From positions 62,001 through 126,000 of the forward strand of contig NZ_JAQRMY010000005.1 in the NCBI RefSeq assembly GCF_028613635.1: a stretch of DNA of 64,000 bases. The letters run 5' to 3'. The DNA comes from Devosia sp. ZB163 (GTDB lineage Bacteria; Pseudomonadota; Alphaproteobacteria; Rhizobiales; Devosiaceae). Positions within the stretch are counted from its first letter, which is position 1, and the number at the start of each line of letters is the position of its first letter. Positions 54,739-64,000 of the stretch are shown here, one piece after another. The translations under genes and the position numbers were made by a program. The notes under the pieces are model-generated. The model worked only from the letters and a program-made list of their open reading frames with translations, was not told the origin of the DNA and did not search any database.

Positions 54739-54756
54739 GCGTAATCAGAAATTAAG
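54739..54756 (+). promoter_or_regulatory. 18-base element shared by two receptor genes, copy 1
   Basis: GCGTAATCAGAAATTAAG, identical to 57520-57537. It ends about 142 bases before the receptor ATG at 54899; the second copy lies at a similar distance (about 132) from its receptor. Likely a promoter or activator site for receptor genes. Confidence 0.6.
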
Positions 54757-54898
54757 CCCCGCTGCCTAGTCTTCCGCCGTTCGTTGCGAAGGCCTGGGGG
54801 GATGGGGTCGACGTTGAACGGTCGCGCAGGCTGACTTGAGCCTGCCCCAGGCGTTTCTGCCCCCTGTATCGAAGGCCGATATACTCGAGGGGGTAGGC

Positions 54899-57415
54899 AT
54901 GGGATTGTTTCCGAATTTGAAGATTGCACAGAAGCTGCCGCTGGCCTTGGCCGGGATGGCGCTGCTCGCCAGCGCGGGCGTGGGACTGGGGAGCTATTTC
55001 GTCGGCTCGTCGATGGTCGCCGAGATGAGCGCCCGCCAGATCCACACTGTGGCATCGGCCCATGCCGACAAGTTCAAGACCTACCTCGACACCATCCAGT
55101 CCGATCTCATCACCACCGCGACCACCGACAGCGCAGTGACGGCGGCGCGCGACTTCGCCATTGCGTGGAAGAGCTTCGCCAAGGCGACGCCGCCAGAAGA
55201 GCCCGTCACCGTGCTGCGCGATGCGTTCATCACCAACAACCCGCATCCGGCGGGGCAGCGGCAGATGCTCGATGTCAACGACAAGGGCCGCACCAACTAC
55301 GACACCACGCATGACAAGGTGCAGGCCACCTTCCGGCGCCAACTCGAGGCGCGGGGCTACCAGGATCTCTACATCTTCGACATCACCGGCAACCTCGTCT
55401 ACTCGGTGATGAAGAACGAAGACTTCGCCATGAACTTCGCCGAGGGCGAGTTGGCCGGGACAGGGCTCGGCCGTGCCTTCCAGGCTGCGGCGAAGCTCAC
55501 CGAGCGCGGCCAGGTCGCCTTCGAGGATGCGTCGGTCTATCCGATCAGCGGCGTGCCGGCGAGCTTCCTCGCCACTCCGATACTCGACCAGCGCGGCAAG
55601 CTGATGGGCGTCATGGCCTTCCAGATGCCGGTCATCGCCATCAACACGATGCTGCAGGACAACTCCAATCTCGGCCAGTCCGCCGAGAGCTTCGTGGTCG
55701 GAGCCGACAAGCTGTTCCGCACCGATTCGCTGTTCTCGGAGGGCGACGACACCCTCGTTTCCACTTACGACGATCCGGTCATCGACGCCGCCCTCGCCGG
55801 CAACGCCGCCGACGGGGTCACCAGCAGCTATCGCGGCATGCGCATGATCGCGACGGCCGAGCCGGTTTCGTTCAACGGCACCACTTGGGCGATGGTCACG
55901 ACCATCTCGGAGGAAGAGGCGTTCGCTTCGGTCGCAGTGTTGCGCAACACGATGCTGCTGATCAGCGCCGGCCTGCTGGCAGTTGCGGGGCTGCTCGGGT
56001 TTGCCTTCTCGCGGACCATCACCAAGCCGATCAGCCGGCTCACCGGAACGATGAACGCGCTCGCCGAAGGCAAGCTCGAGACCAAGGTGACAGGAGCGGG
56101 ACGGCGCGACGAGATCGGCGCCATGGCGCGGGCCGTGCAGGTCTTCAAGGAGAACGCGCTCAAGGTCAGCGAGATGACCGAAGGCGAGCGCACGGCCTCG
56201 ATCCAGCGCCGGAACGAACGCACGCAGATGATGCAGACGCTGCAGAAGGCGTTCGGCGAAGTGGTGGATGCGGCGATCGACGGTGATTTCTCCAAGCGCG
56301 TCGGTGCCGAGTTCCCCGATGCAGAGCTCAACGCGCTCGCCCACGGTGTCAACGAACTGGTGGCGACGGTCGACCGCGGCCTCAGCGAGACCGGATCGGT
56401 GCTCGGGGCACTTGCCGACACGGACCTGACGCGCCGGGTGGCCGGCGACTACCGGGGCGCGTTCCTGCAGCTGAAGACAGATACGAATGCGGTGGCGGAG
56501 AAGCTGACCGAGATCGTCGGGGGGCTGAAGCAGACCTCGCGCGGACTGAAGACCGCGACCTCCGAGATTCTCTCGGGTGCGAACGACCTGAGCGAGCGGA
56601 CGACCAAGCAGGCGGCGACGATCGAGGAGACGTCGGCTGCCATGGAGCAGCTCTCGAGCACCGTGCTCGCCAATGCCGAGCGGGCCAAGGATGCGTCCAG
56701 CGTTGCCGCATCGGTGACGCGGACCGCCGAGGAGGGCGGCCAGGTGATGCATCAGGCGACCGATGCCATGGAGCGCATCACCCATTCGTCGGGCAAGATC
56801 TCCAACATCATCGGCATGATCGACGACATCGCGTTCCAGACGAACCTCCTTGCGCTCAACGCATCGGTGGAAGCGGCGCGGGCCGGCGATGCCGGCAAGG
56901 GCTTTGCGGTGGTTGCCGTGGAAGTGCGCCGTCTCGCCCAGTCCGCCGCGCAGGCTTCGTCGGAGGTCAAGGCGCTGATCGAGCAATCGGGCAGCGAGGT
57001 GAAGGGCGGCAGCAAGCTCGTGGCGGAGGCCGCGGCCAAGCTCGAGGCGATGCTGGTTGCGGCGCGCTCGTCGAACGAGCTGATGGATTCGATCGCCCGC
57101 GCCAGCCAGGAGCAGGCTTCGGCGATCGAGGAAGTGAACGCGGCCGTGCGCCAGATGGACGAGATGACCCAGCACAATGCAGCGCTGGTCGAGGAGACCA
57201 ATGCGGCGATCGAGCAGACCGAGGCGCAGGCCGCCGAGCTCGACCGCATCGTCGAGGTGTTCCACACCGACGGCGGTGCTGCTGCCTCCGCATCGGCTCC
57301 CGTGGCCGCTCCGGCGAAGGGCATCAAGGCGCTGCAGGCCAAGGTTCGAGACGCGGCGAAATCGTATCTCAGCCATGGCAACGCCGCTGTCGACAAGGAC
57401 TGGGCCGAGTTCTGA
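54899..57415 (+). CDS. Methyl-accepting chemotaxis protein with large periplasmic sensor and CheR tether
   Basis: 838 residues from ATG 54899 behind GAGGGGG. Helix 1 lies at about 13-35, a Cache-like periplasmic domain of about 300 residues follows, and helix 2 is at about 348-368 ([18 protein letters not shown]). HAMP follows at [20 protein letters not shown], then more HAMP-like repeats ([16 protein letters not shown]). The signalling domain has [20 protein letters not shown] near 638. The chain ends KDWAEF, an xWxxF pentapeptide that tethers CheR and CheB. The kinase-control part is almost the same as in the next receptor. Ligand unknown. Confidence 0.92.
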
Positions 57416-57434
57416 GATCGCTTGACCGAGCTTC

Positions 57435-57460
57435 AAAGGCCGCCTCCGGGCGGCCTTTTT
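57435..57460 (+). terminator. Intrinsic terminator between the first two receptor genes
   Basis: AAAGGCCGCC (57435-57444) pairs with GGCGGCCTTT (57449-57458) and a T-run continues to 57460. Each receptor gene is therefore its own transcript. Confidence 0.92.
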
Positions 57461-57519
57461 CGTTTCGGCCGATGTAATCGAATACACGCCCGGAAATGCT
57501 GGGGTCTCTGCGTCTCGAT

Positions 57520-57537
57520 GCGTAATCAGAAATTAAG
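57520..57537 (+). promoter_or_regulatory. 18-base element shared by two receptor genes, copy 2
   Basis: GCGTAATCAGAAATTAAG, an exact copy of 54739-54756. It ends about 132 bases before the receptor ATG at 57670. Flanking sequence differs from the first copy, so the element itself seems conserved rather than the whole leader. Confidence 0.6.
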
Positions 57538-57669
57538 AGCAGAGCACGTACTGTTCCAATGAAATCGTTTTCGGCCTCGGGAGGGGGTGGGGCCGGAGTG
57601 AGCGCGGGTGCATGCCCGCCTTAACCCGTTTCATCCCCGCCGGCCGCTGCTCGAGGGGAGGGTTGCGAT

Positions 57670-60195
57670 ATGGGTTGGCTTCCGAAGTTCAGGATTGCGC
57701 AGAAGCTGCCGCTGGCCATGGTCGGATCGGCGCTGGTGGTGAGTGCCGGCGTCGGCATCGCCAGCTACCTGATCGGCTCGAGCACGGTGGCCGATCTCAG
57801 CGCGCGGCAAATGCAGACGATCGCTGCCGGCCGCGCCCACGCGTTCGAGACCTACCTCGGCACCATCGAGGGCGACCTCGTCAATTCGGCTGCCACCGAG
57901 AGCATCCAGACCACGCTGCGCGACCTCGGCATCGGCTGGGGCCAGTTCGGGACGGCCAAGCCCGCTGCCGACCCGGTGGCAACGCTGCGCGCCAACTACA
58001 TCGACAAGAACCCCAATGCCGAGGGTGCGCGCCAGCTGCTCGACACGCCGGCCGACACCACCGGCAAGAAATGGAACTACGACTTCGCGCACTCCAAGGT
58101 GCACCCCAACTTCCGCAGCCAGGCCGAGCGTAGTGGCTACGAGGACGTGTACCTGATCGATACGGCGGGCAACGTCATCTACTCGGTGATGAAGAACGAC
58201 GACTTCGCGGCGAATGTCGCGGAGGGCGGCCAGTACGCCGATACCGGGCTCGGCCGCGCCTATCGCACTGCGATGGCCTTCACCGAACGGGGGCAGGTCG
58301 CGTTCGAGGATCTCTCCGCCTATGCCCCGTCGGCCGGGGTGCCGGCGAGCTTCCTCGCTACGGCAGTGTTCGATCCGCGCAAGAAGCTGATCGGCGTCAT
58401 GGCCATCCGCATGCCGGTCGCGCCCATCACGAAGTTGATGCAGGACACGGCCAATCTCGGCGCGACGGGCGAGAGCTTCTATGTCGGCGCCGACAAGCTG
58501 CTGCGCTCGGACTCGCTGTTCTCGGAGGGCGACGACACGCTCGCCACCGCCTACGACAACCCGGTGGTCGATGCGGCACTTGCCGGTACGGCCAGCCAGG
58601 GCACGACGAGCGACTATCGCGGCATGCGCATGATCGCGACGGCCGAGCCGGTCGAGTTCAACGGCGCCAGATGGGCCATGGTCACCACTATCGGGGAGGA
58701 CGAGGCTTTCGCGCCGATCGCGCAACTGAGGAACATGATGCTGGCCGTCGGCGCGCTGCTGCTGGCCGCGGCCGCCGTGCTCGGCCTTGTCTTCAGCCGG
58801 ACGGTGACCAAGCCGATCAGCCGCCTCACTGCGACGATGAACGCGCTCGCGGAGGGTAAGCTCGAGACCGAGGTGAAGGGCGCAGGGCGCAGCGACGAGA
58901 TCGGCGACATGGCGCGGGCGGTCGAGGTGTTCAAGGTCAATGCGCTCAAGGTCAACGAGATGACCGAAGGGGAGCGCACCGCCTCGATCCAGCGCCGCAC
59001 CGAGCGCACGCACATGATGCAGGCACTGCAGCAGGCCTTCGGCGAGGTGGTCGATGCGGCAATTGCAGGCGACTTCTCCAAGCGCGTCAATGCCGAGTTC
59101 CCCGATCCCGAGCTCAACGCGCTGGCCCGTGGCGTCAACGAGCTGGTCGAGACGGTCGATCGTGGCATGAGCGAGACCGGCGAGGTTCTTGCGGCGCTCG
59201 CCCATACCGATCTCACCCGTCGCGTCGAAGGCGACTACGAGGGCGCGTTCCTGCGGCTCAAGACGGACACCAATCAGGTGGCCGAAAAGCTCAGCCAGAT
59301 CGTCTCGGGTCTCAAGGAGACCTCGCGCGGGCTGAAGATCGCGACGTCGGAAATTCTGTCGGGTGCGAACGACCTCAGCGAGCGCACGACCAAGCAGGCG
59401 GCGACGATCGAGGAGACGTCGGCTGCGATGGAGCAGCTGTCGGGCACGGTGCTCGCCAATGCCGAGCGGGCCAAGGATGCCTCCAATGTCGCGGCGGCGG
59501 TGACGCGGACCGCCGAGGAGGGCGGGCAGGTCATGCATCAGGCGACCAACGCCATGGAGCGGATCACCACCTCGTCGGGCAAGATCTCCAACATCATCGG
59601 CATGATCGACGACATTGCTTTCCAGACGAACCTGCTGGCGCTCAACGCTTCGGTCGAGGCGGCGCGCGCCGGCGAGGCGGGGAAGGGCTTTGCGGTGGTT
59701 GCCGTCGAGGTGCGGCGCCTCGCCCAGTCGGCGGCTCAGGCGTCGAGCGAGGTCAAGGTCCTCATCGAGCAGTCCGGTACCGAGGTGAAGGGCGGCAGCA
59801 AGCTCGTGGCCGAGGCCGCAGCCAAGCTCGAGGCGATGCTGGTCGCGGCCCGATCGTCGAACGAGCTGATGGACTCGATCGCGCGGGCCAGCCAGGAGCA
59901 GGCTTCGGCGATCGAGGAGGTCAACGCCGCCGTCCGGCAGATGGACGAGATGACCCAGCACAATGCGGCGCTGGTCGAGGAGACCAACGCGGCGATCGAG
60001 CAGACCGAGGCGCAAGCCGTCGAGCTCGACCGCATCGTCGATGTGTTCCGTACCGGCGAGGTCGCTACCGCGGCCCGTGCTCCGGAACCTCCGGCCAAGG
60101 GCATCAAGGCGATGCAGGAGAAGGTGCGGTCCGCCGCGCGCTCCTATCTCAGCCGGGGCAATGCGGCCGTCGACAAGGACTGGTCCGAGTTCTGA
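57670..60195 (+). CDS. Methyl-accepting chemotaxis protein, paralogue of the preceding receptor, with CheR tether
   Basis: 841 residues from ATG 57670 behind GAGGGGAGGG. Same layout as the receptor at 54899: helix 1 near 13-35, a periplasmic domain of about 300 residues, helix 2 near 355-376 and HAMP from [20 protein letters not shown]. Second HAMP-like segments follow, then the signalling hairpin with [20 protein letters not shown]. It ends KDWSEF, again a tether pentapeptide. The periplasmic halves have diverged, with different loops around residues 95-140, while the cytoplasmic halves are nearly identical. This is a recent duplication with a new sensor specificity. Confidence 0.92.
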
Positions 60196-60252
60196 TCCCA
60201 CGGGGCGCCGGTTGGCGCCCCGCTTTCCTTGCTTTGTCCAGGAGGACTCGGC

Positions 60253-63153
60253 ATGCGCCGCAGCCATCGGATTGCCGCCTCGCTCGCCCTCGCGGCCCTG
60301 CCGCTCCTCGGCGGGCTTTATCTCTGGCTCGCCGCAAACGCGGACGCCGAGCTGGCGCGCCGGGAGGCGCAGGGTGTCGCCTATGCCGGGCAGGTCCTTC
60401 CCGAGCTCGCGAGCCTTGCCAAGGACGGGACGGTCCAGCCCAACGCCTGGCTTCGCCAGGCCGCAGTTGTCGGCGATCCGGCCTTCGGCACGGGCGCCAT
60501 TTCCAAGGCATATGACGTGCTGAAGGCGGAGGTTGCAGGCGGTGCCCATCCAGCCGCGGCCCGTCATGCCGCGGCCATGCTGGTGGCGCGCATCCACGAG
60601 GCGTCGGGATTGGCTGCAGAAGCCGGCTCCACCGAGGACGCCGCGCAACTGATCGAGGTGCCGCAAGCGGCGAACGCTGCGCCCCTGTCGCCGGCGCTGA
60701 TGCAGGCATCACGTTTCGCGACTGCTGTCGGGGCGGGCGAGCTCAAGCGGCTCGAGGACGTTCTCGCCGAGTTCCGCACTGCGACCGAAGCTACCGGGTC
60801 GCGCGCAGAGGCTCGCGCCTATGCCGGGGCCGCCACGGTTTTCGCCGACAGGATCGCCGCCGGCCTTGCCGCGCTGCCTGACGCCAAGGCGCGTGCGGGG
60901 TTCGACTGGGACGGTCTCGACGCCGCGCATGACGCGTTCCAGGACGCCGCTCTCGCGCAGGGGCAGGCGGCCGGCACGCGCATGCAGGCAACGCTCGACA
61001 AGCGGCTGGCCGAGGCGCAATCGCGGTCGGCGATGATCGTGGCCGTGGCGTCTGTCCTCGCCGTGTTGCTAGGCGCGGGGGCCTATCTCGGGCTCGGTGG
61101 GCAACTGCCGGTTAAGGAAGAACGCCTATCATCAATGGCTGGGAAGAGTGGGGCAGCCGGGCCTAAGAGCCGCGGCAACTTGGGGGCTAGAATGGCCAAC
61201 ACCTCTCTACGCGCCAGGGGCGGCGTGAAGCTGACCACCGCGATCTCGGCCATGGTCTTTCTGGCTGTAGCGATCGCCATTTCGGCAGTGCTGTTTGCCG
61301 TCTATCTCATGCTCGAGGCCAACACGCGGACGACCGCTCACGATCGGCTCACGGCCGATCTGCGCATCGCGGCGGCCATCCTCGAGGTGAACCTGCCCAA
61401 CTCGGACATCTACTGGACCGAGTCGGGCCAGCTCGAGCGCATCGAAGCCAAGGCGATGCCGAAGTTCCGCAACCACGACCTGATCGATACGATCGGGCGG
61501 GTGACGGGCGACACGGCCACGCTGTTCGTTCTCGATCCGCAGACACAGGACTTCGTCGGCAAGACCACGACGCTCACCGACGAGACCGGCGAACGCCTCG
61601 TCGAAACGCCGCTCGCCAAGGACGGTCCGGCCTATCCGGTGGTCCTCGCCGGCGGGACCTATGAAGGTCAGGCCAGCGTCCTCGATGTGCCGTACTACGC
61701 CATCTATCAGCCGGTGCTGAACCTCGAGCGAGAAGTCATCGGCTTGGTCTATATCGGCACGCCAAAGGCCGAGATCGACGGTGTCGCCAACCGGGGGCTG
61801 ACGATGCTGGCGCTTGTCGGCGCGGTGGCGGTGGTGGTGATCGGCGCGCTCGCGGTGTTCGCCTCTTCGCGGCTGACGCGACCGATCCCGCGCCTGTCGC
61901 AGGCCATGCAACGCGTCGCCAGCGGCGATCTTGACAGCGCCATCCCCTATGTCGGGCTCGGTAATGAGATCGGCGACATGGCCCGCAATGTCGAGGTCTT
62001 CCGCGCCAATGCGCTCAGGGTGCAGGAACTGACTGAGGACGAGCGGCTGGCGCTCGAACAGCGCCGCGCCGAGCGCGCCGAGATGATGCTGTCGCTGCAG
62101 CAGAGTTTTGGCCAGGTGGTCGACGCTGCCACGGAAGGCGATTTCAGCCATCGGGTCGAAGCGAGGTTCGCCGACGACGAACTCAACCGGCTGGCGCAGA
62201 GCGTGAACCGGCTGGTCGACACGGTCGAGGCGGTCTTCACCGATGCCGGCACTGCGCTCGCCGCCATCGCCGACACCGACCTGACCTATCGCATGACCGG
62301 CGAGTATGGCGGCGCGCTCGGCAAGCTGCGCGACGACACCAATCACGTGGCCGAGCGGCTGGCCGCCATGGTGTCAACGCTCAAGCATACCTCCGGCACG
62401 CTCAAGACCGCGACGGCGGAGATACTGTCGGGCGCCAACGACCTCAGCGAACGCACCACACGGCAGGCAGCAACGATCGAGGAAACCAGCGCGGCCATGA
62501 TGCAGCTGGCCGACACGGTGCGCGCCAATGCCGAGAAGGCCGAGGACGCCCGTCATGTCGCCGAGGACGTCACGCGTTCGGGGGAAGAGGGCGGGGCGGT
62601 GATGCTCGAGGCCAACCATGCCATGGAGCGCATCACCCAGTCGTCGGGCAAGATTTCCAATATCATCGGCATGATCGACGACATCGCCTTCCAGACCAAC
62701 CTGCTTGCACTCAACGCCTCGGTGGAGGCGGCTCGGGCCGGCGAGGCCGGCAAGGGCTTTGCCGTGGTCGCCGTCGAAGTGCGCCGCCTCGCCCAGTCGG
62801 CAGCGCAGGCGTCGAGCGAGGTGAAGGTCCTCATCGAGCAGTCAGGCGCCGAGGTCCAGGGCGGCACGAGGCTGGTCGCCCAGGCGGCCGGCAAGCTGGA
62901 TGCGATGATGACCGCGGCGCGTCGCTCCAGTGCGCTCATGGCTACCATCGCCGAGGGTAGCCGCCACCAGGCGGGTTCGATCGACGAGGTCAACATGGCC
63001 GTGCGCCAGCTCGACGAGATGACCCAGCACAATGCAGCGCTGGTCGAGCAGATCAACGCCGCCATCGAGCAGACCGAAGCCCAGGCGGGCGAGGTCGACA
63101 GCATCGCCGACGTCTTCACCCTCGGCGACAAAACGGGCCGGCGCGCTGCCTGA
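60253..63153 (+). CDS. Four-helix, two-sensor methyl-accepting chemotaxis protein
   Basis: 966 residues from ATG 60253 behind CAGGAGGAC. Helix 1 (about 6-26), an all-helical periplasmic region (about 27-255) and helix 2 (about 259-281) form a first sensor. A short cytosolic linker then leads to helix 3 (about 329-355), a Cache_3/Cache_2-type domain (about 356-512: [20 protein letters not shown]) and helix 4 (about 515-538). HAMP and the usual signalling domain ([13 protein letters not shown]) finish it. It ends TGRRAA, without the tether pentapeptide. An in-frame ATG at 61192 could give the second sensor alone. The unbroken frame argues for a true fusion. Confidence 0.88.
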
Positions 63154-63304
63154 CGGCGCCGGCTCCACATCCCCCTCCCACGGCCAAAGTAGCATAGCGG
63201 GACCGCAGCGCGGTGACGCGATGTTAACGATGACATGATGTCTTTCGGAATCGGACGCAGAAGCACCTGACGACAGTCGATTCTCCAGAAGGACCCGCGA
63301 CTTC

Positions 63305-64000
63305 ATGCCCGCCAAGCTATCTCTCAGATTCCCGTCGCTGAAGCTTCGGGGCTCCATTATCCTGGCTGCGGCCGCGATCTTCACCGTCGCCATCGGCTCA
63401 TCGCTCTACTACGTCGTCACCACCAACCGGGCACAGGACCTGGCTCGAGCCGACGAGGTCGTGGGCGGGCTGGCCGAGACCGAGGCGGAGTCGATCCGCT
63501 CCTTCCTCACGACCTTCGCCGTGGCCGCGGACTCTACTGCCCGCACCGCCGAAGCCCTGCTGGCGGGCCAGGAAGCGACGCCCTCGACCTACGGCGCAAT
63601 CGTCTCCAAGCAGTTGCAGAGCCTGCCCGGCGCGCTCGGCGTCTACATGATGTTTGCGCCGGATTCGGCGCTCCATACCCGCCCGGCGTTCCAGGGCTCG
63701 AACTTCGTCATCACGGGCAACCATGTCGGCATCCTTGCCGAGAACAAGGCCGACGGCAGCGTCGGCTTCGGATCGCTCGACAGCGGCGCCGGCTTCGACA
63801 GCTGGTTCACCGAGCCGCTCAAGGCCGGTGTGTCGGCGATCAGCGGCCCCGACAACATCGAGGGCCTGCTCTACACGAGCTTCACCAACATTATCCGCGA
63901 CGCGGCCGGCAAGGCCGTCGGCATGAGCGGCGTGGCGTTCAACTCGGCCAATCTCGCCACTATGATCGGCAGCGAGGCGCCGATGGGCAGCGGCTTCAAG
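63305..64000 (+). CDS. Methyl-accepting chemotaxis protein, N-terminal part (cut by window edge)
   Basis: Open for 232 codons from ATG 63305 to the end of the window. A basic start, then helix 1 (about 17-38, SIILAAAAIFTVAIGSSLYY), then a periplasmic region typical of dCache sensors. The region includes VVGGLAETEAESIRSFLTTF, VYMMFAPDSALHTRP and SWFTEPLKAGVSAISGP, the last being the tryptophan-containing dCache strand. VGMSGVAFNSANLATMIG fits the end of the first Cache repeat. Helix 2, HAMP and signalling domain should lie beyond the edge. It starts about 150 bases after the previous receptor in the same direction. Confidence 0.82.
   Translation, partial: MPAKLSLRFPSLKLRGSIILAAAAIFTVAIGSSLYYVVTTNRAQDLARADEVVGGLAETEAESIRSFLTTFAVAADSTARTAEALLAGQEATPSTYGAIVSKQLQSLPGALGVYMMFAPDSALHTRPAFQGSNFVITGNHVGILAENKADGSVGFGSLDSGAGFDSWFTEPLKAGVSAISGPDNIEGLLYTSFTNIIRDAAGKAVGMSGVAFNSANLATMIGSEAPMGSGFK

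Follow-up and report, generated by a model that had tools for sequence, protein, structure and literature searches.

A Devosia chemoreceptor gene with two membrane modules in series, a candidate nested gene pair arisen by fusion

PilJ, a chemoreceptor of Pseudomonas aeruginosa, has both of its sensor units between a single pair of membrane helices. The available portion of its description also counts two sensor units, both helical, in this receptor (PMC12552656; PDB 7zjr). We found no receptor with two transmembrane sensor modules in the open-access literature that was searched, and the accessible portion of one of these papers (PMC3831638) contains no two-module receptor. A second point of comparison is the formate-bound sensor domain of a chemoreceptor from Asticcacaulis benevestitus (PDB 8py1), which resembles the Cache module described below.

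The receptor that concerns us here is encoded in a stretch of 64,000 nucleotides from Devosia sp. ZB163 (the window), where an open frame on the forward strand, the strand of all features described below, starts with an ATG at 60253, ends at 63153 and encodes 966 residues. A ribosome-binding-site-like AGGAGG lies ahead of it at 60240-60245. The product is a methyl-accepting chemotaxis protein, a family that is defined by its signalling part, and it departs from the usual arrangement of one sensor between two helices in having two such units in series. Module 1 (residues 1-283, 60253-61101) consists of the membrane helix TM1 (residues 7-25, 60271-60327; part of a helix spanning residues 2-58 in the model of the module), a helical periplasmic domain and TM2 (residues 261-279, 61033-61089). 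It is followed by 1) a cytoplasmic linker (residues 284-313, 61102-61191), which would be the former intergenic region of a second gene; 2) TM3 (residues 334-352, 61252-61308); 3) an sCache_3_3 sensor domain (residues 407-511, 61471-61785; Pfam PF17202, 82.0 bits against a cut-off of 28.8); 4) TM4 (residues 518-536, 61804-61860); 5) directly after TM4, a HAMP domain (residues 537-586, 61861-62010; PF00672, 55.9 bits in two stretches); and 6) the MCPsignal domain (residues 768-924, 62554-63024; PF00015, 134.1 bits against a cut-off of 34.6). A HAMP_2 match at residues 645-700 is marginally below the Pfam cut-off (23.9 against 24.3), and residues 1-313 have no significant Pfam match. The membrane segments were placed by hydropathy, which gives four of them in six of the seven fused proteins presented below and a fifth, weak one in the protein of genome G015. 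Modelled alone with AlphaFold, module 1 is helical throughout residues 2-282 (pLDDT 92.7, pTM 0.85). The model of the whole protein has a mean pLDDT of 71.8 and a pTM of only 0.35, so we used its local features alone: a pLDDT below 50 in the linker region (residues 282-326), a long helix running into the Cache domain from residue 327, and a mixed alpha/beta Cache domain. The original prediction of four membrane helices enclosing a helical and then a Cache-type domain, ahead of a HAMP and signalling part, had the anatomy right by hydropathy, AlphaFold and Pfam, and the topology prediction that it proposed as a check returns the four segments listed. It went too far in calling both modules complete, because module 1 is without a HAMP and no longer carries the signature motif of its family.

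The Cache module superposes on 8py1 with a TMt of 0.94, an rmsd of 1.1 and 36% identity, and phmmer reaches the same entry, whose title specifies a formate complex, with an E-value of 3.4e-32. The window protein and 8py1 share 26 residues that also recur in all seven fused proteins and in no fewer than 85% of 17 one-sensor rows. Judged from sequence, the Cache and signalling parts are demonstrably intact, and by analogy a short receptor made from them would probably respond to formate or another small carboxylate like it. When synonymous conservation is normalised, the strongest signal in the gene falls in the Cache domain, at residues 374-405 (about 61400-61480; permutation p 0.001, 30 codons).

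Among 19 genomes from the genus, seven carry the same fused frame, that of the window being one of them, and the fused proteins are 62-72% identical to the window protein. A merge of two genes by a sequencing or assembly error, named at the outset as a finding that would undo the prediction, is rejected because the frame is common to seven genomes. The other such finding, a first module that is always separate in relatives, did not turn up either. A search for homologues with and without the module found module 1 in 14 of the 136 genomes of the family, fused in seven and separate in seven (frames of 711-770 aa), and the layout of two modules in one chain, as originally described, is rare among relatives. 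In the order, 36 of 397 genomes have module-1 matches, the window's own included (35 others). We considered whether the two-sensor form is general to module 1 and did not find it in the five long frames of the order that were fetched, each of which, as judged by reading, combines PAS-like domains with a single helical sensor in the periplasm; of the frames above 850 aa, this reading took in one of the five that are 995 aa long and left aside the other four, along with those of G484 and G317.

On alignment, module 1 is clearly homologous to the sensors of stand-alone helical-module chemotaxis proteins, the homology extending through TM2 and ending before their HAMP. The most informative genome is G016, of the same genus, in which a 714-aa helical-module receptor (E 6.1e-107 with the joint profile, which contains G016 itself) is separated by 138 bases from the start codon of a Cache receptor downstream. 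Ahead of this tandem pair is the gene of an 841-aa receptor with 72% identity to the product of the window gene at 57670-60195, and a comparable receptor gene precedes the fused gene in all five loci, out of six, for which there is upstream sequence. In a tree of the Cache-to-signal part, the seven fused receptors form one clade (100/98) and G016 is its sister (100/99). The end of homology before the HAMP, the tandem genes of G016 and the tree together indicate that one deletion fused two genes; on these comparisons the fusion shows a single origin, apparently through the first gene losing its HAMP and signalling part. The path to the present gene would have comprised 1) an ancestor with a helical-sensor receptor beside a Cache-sensor receptor, as in present G016; 2) a deletion that stripped the first gene of its HAMP and signalling part and also took the start of the intergenic region; 3) the in-frame joining of the TM2 of the first gene to the promoter region of the second; and 4) as an outcome, an old promoter, ribosome site and start codon that would now lie inside the linker.

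The reading that we favour, at a little less than an even chance, is that the fusion created a nested gene pair, with a long form made from 60253 and a one-sensor receptor made from an internal promoter and an ATG at 61192. Full-length translation from 60253 would give a long receptor whose N-terminal membrane domain has been repurposed. This domain would no longer sense the ancestral ligand, nor be able to couple to a HAMP, and would serve instead as an anchor, a partner-binding or a dimer-modifying domain; the role of anchor or partner-binding domain is a guess. Transcription from 61103-61132, probably controlled by CtrA, followed by translation from the ATG at 61192, would give an ordinary one-sensor receptor of 653 aa (nested frame 61192-63153), and the long and short forms, sharing a signalling domain, could build mixed arrays. 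It is conceivable, though we regard it as doubtful, that the internal CtrA promoter sets the ratio of long to short form and that the arrays shift in composition with the cell cycle.

A one-sensor form starting at 61192 had been proposed originally from the in-frame ATG alone. The ATG is indeed present, and the idea has gained from what surrounds it. First, the codon is kept in six of the seven fused genes and, in alignment, falls where the separate Cache receptor of G016 begins, which would make it the ancestral start. It is preceded at 61182-61186 by GGGGG, a G-rich run that may be a ribosome site. Second, the linker carries a promoter-like pattern within coding sequence. De novo motif finding in the DNA ahead of 18 one-sensor receptor genes of other genera returned the box AA-N7-TTAA, with a log-likelihood of 166; five shuffled sets, given fewer starts, reached 66-69. 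In these regions a TA-N3-T element follows the box at a constant step of ten bases. The combined pattern, AA-N7-TTAA-N10-NTANNNT, a CtrA-type box plus a -10-like element, was defined only after the linkers had been inspected. It occurs upstream of one-sensor receptors in 14 of 22 regions, a set with three near copies, and with exact spacing at the same place of the linker in five of the seven fused genes, at 61103-61132 in the window. Both strands of the 64 kb hold two matches, this one and another at 54743-54772, ahead of the receptor ORF at 54836; 15 first-order shuffles hold none. The whole genome has 11 matches, against three for the reversed pattern, and the genes behind them include cpdR (NCBIfam, 199.4 bits against 180) and, besides receptor ORF 54836, genes for two GGDEF proteins, one PAS protein and one DUF2336 protein (loci L105, 1501-1926, and L098-L104). 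The available portion of PMC9437464 gives TTAA-N7-TTAA as the CtrA consensus and assigns CtrA an ancestral role in motility and chemotaxis. We named the pattern after this consensus despite its left half, which is GCAA or TCAA and not TTAA in the fused genes; the right half is TTAA in five of the seven.

The copy in the intergenic region of G016 fails the strict pattern, its spacing being one base longer and the left AA missing. The de novo matrix gives low scores to the boxes of the window's genus, and the linker site is the top site of its gene only in the window, G018 and G002. A scan with the sigma-70 consensus found no promoter. The linker looks like the old promoter region of the second gene, as GGTTAAGGA and a TATC element are found both in the linker and in the intergenic region of G016. 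An element that is there by descent is no proof, by its presence alone, of use, and this shared GGTTAAGGA is equally what one would expect if only the long form were made, with the linker element a fossil left by short divergence and module 1 a membrane anchor or structural extension. We consider that explanation unlikely, although it survives best among the alternatives. It is consistent with the loss of the pattern and the ATG together in G015, where 22 linker codons are missing, and with the loss of the box in G001, which has CCAA in place of TTAA; the retention of the ATG in six genes and of the exact spacing in five argues against it.

Conservation within the linker bears on the same choice. 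By codon position, the linker evolves unlike coding DNA: identity at third positions is 0.66, against 0.67 and 0.70 at first and second positions, and the corresponding values in module 1 are 0.45 against 0.71 and 0.75. The linker's contrast is surpassed in three of 881 test windows that do not overlap the linker, all at the start of the gene. Within the linker, the nine fixed sites of the pattern are more conserved, at 0.926, than the other sites, at 0.711 (3000 permutations, p 0.011; six genes, G015 being omitted owing to its gap). Fossil status also sits poorly with the A/T bases at third positions of the pattern, which are kept at 1.0, 0.8 and 1.0 against 0.22 in the rest of the gene. Six genes share an invariant CTA codon for leucine, and four of them have no other CTA. 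The raw synonymous score over 16 codons peaks in the linker, where it reaches 0.93 and the mean is 0.62. Once the score is normalised by amino acid and pair, the Cache domain comes top and the linker second to fourth, with permutation p of 0.17-0.31 where it ranks second, and this lack of significance is in favour of a gene that makes the long form only.

The other question is what module 1 does in the long form of the putative nested pair. The motif S-x-L-x-LDPD-x-D-x-x-Y is present in 26 of 26 stand-alone relatives and in none of the seven fused proteins, in which the residues just after the motif position are likewise absent; alignment with the relatives places the site at residues about 118-133 (60604-60651). 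The 26 are the relatives with stored loci, seven from the family and 19 from the order, and the motif played no part in selecting them, the search profile being made of seven fused rows of nine. They point to a Rhizobiales helical sensor family with an SNL[IT]LDPDLDS[YF]Y motif (L021, L022 and L069-L092), and in three members searched there was no Pfam sensor match. Across seven pairs (NG86), dN/dS ranges over 0.29-1.09 in the linker, 0.18-0.44 in module 1, 0.08-0.40 in TM3-Cache-TM4 and 0.05-0.23 from the HAMP through the signalling domain. Module 1 thus appears to be still under purifying selection, and pseudogene drift is unlikely given these values and a frame that is open in seven species. 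By these measures the module is retained, though apparently not as the ancestral sensor. As candidates for a NIT or four-helix-bundle sensor fold in module 1, PcaY (6s37; Z 13.0 over 125 residues) and NasR (4akk; Z 12.4 over 232 residues, rmsd 4.4) match it at a level that lies within the helical-bundle background. Foldseek gave zero matches to the module-1 model at E of 0.001 or less, and comparing the module-1 relatives with solved structures by sequence alone gave nothing convincing.

Purifying selection on a module that has stayed in frame across seven species and whose helical fold is well predicted would also suit a true two-input receptor, in which both modules sense, module 1 with a changed ligand, and their signals are added or gated before a single HAMP. 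Integration within one chain was what the original prediction had put forward, and the data do not support it. First, the signature motif is lost in all seven fused proteins. Second, TM2 leads into a linker that is predicted to be disordered, and not into a HAMP. Third, the length of this linker varies, G015 being shorter by 22 codons. With the sensing signature gone and a disordered linker of variable length after TM2, a two-input receptor is less likely than the nested pair, and we rate it as quite improbable.

The fused gene belongs to a series of at least four tandem chemoreceptor genes (54836-64000), and the gene that follows it runs on past the window to 808 aa. The two receptors upstream of it end in DWAEF or DWSEF (near 57400 and 60180), presumably the pentapeptide tether for CheR, and the fused receptor ends in GRRAA (63140); among the seven fused proteins, the DWAEF terminus is found only in that of G008 (L025). 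The weakest explanation, that the short form is the main product and the long frame a weakly expressed read-through, could draw on a terminator-like hairpin that separates the fused gene from the receptor gene before it (60201-60222, 9 G-C pairs, itself weak, in a region with three such sites against 1.5 expected) and on the zero matches of the pattern in the 200 bases upstream of each of the seven fused genes, but it is very improbable in view of the dN/dS of module 1, the strong ribosome site at 60240 and the roughly 280 codons of module 1 that have stayed open in seven species.

If the favoured reading of a nested gene pair is true, it would reveal a simple route to receptor isoforms, in which the membrane domain of a neighbour is fused on and the old promoter is kept in the seam. 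The genus provides natural controls: G016 is unfused, G015 has its promoter and start codon deleted and would make the long form only, and G001 has a changed box. The fused gene is also a test of an extra membrane module, devoid of sensing signature and HAMP, in a chemoreceptor. Compared with known systems, its second half is that of the one-sensor sCache receptors (the Cache receptor of G016 and L030-L050), which likewise consist of TM, Cache, TM, HAMP and MCPsignal, are 54-67% identical to it from residue about 311 on, and have a promoter-like box before the start codon, as at the internal start of the fused gene; they differ in being without module 1, each in a gene of its own with its own intergenic promoter. 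Its first half, from TM1 through TM2, is shared with the stand-alone helical-module receptors (714 aa in G016, 711 aa in G017, and 24 others), five long ones of which also have PAS-like domains. These differ in keeping SxLxLDPDxDxxY and in a TM2 that continues into HAMP and MCPsignal. Finally, the fused receptor is unlike PilJ in that each of its two modules has a pair of membrane helices of its own.
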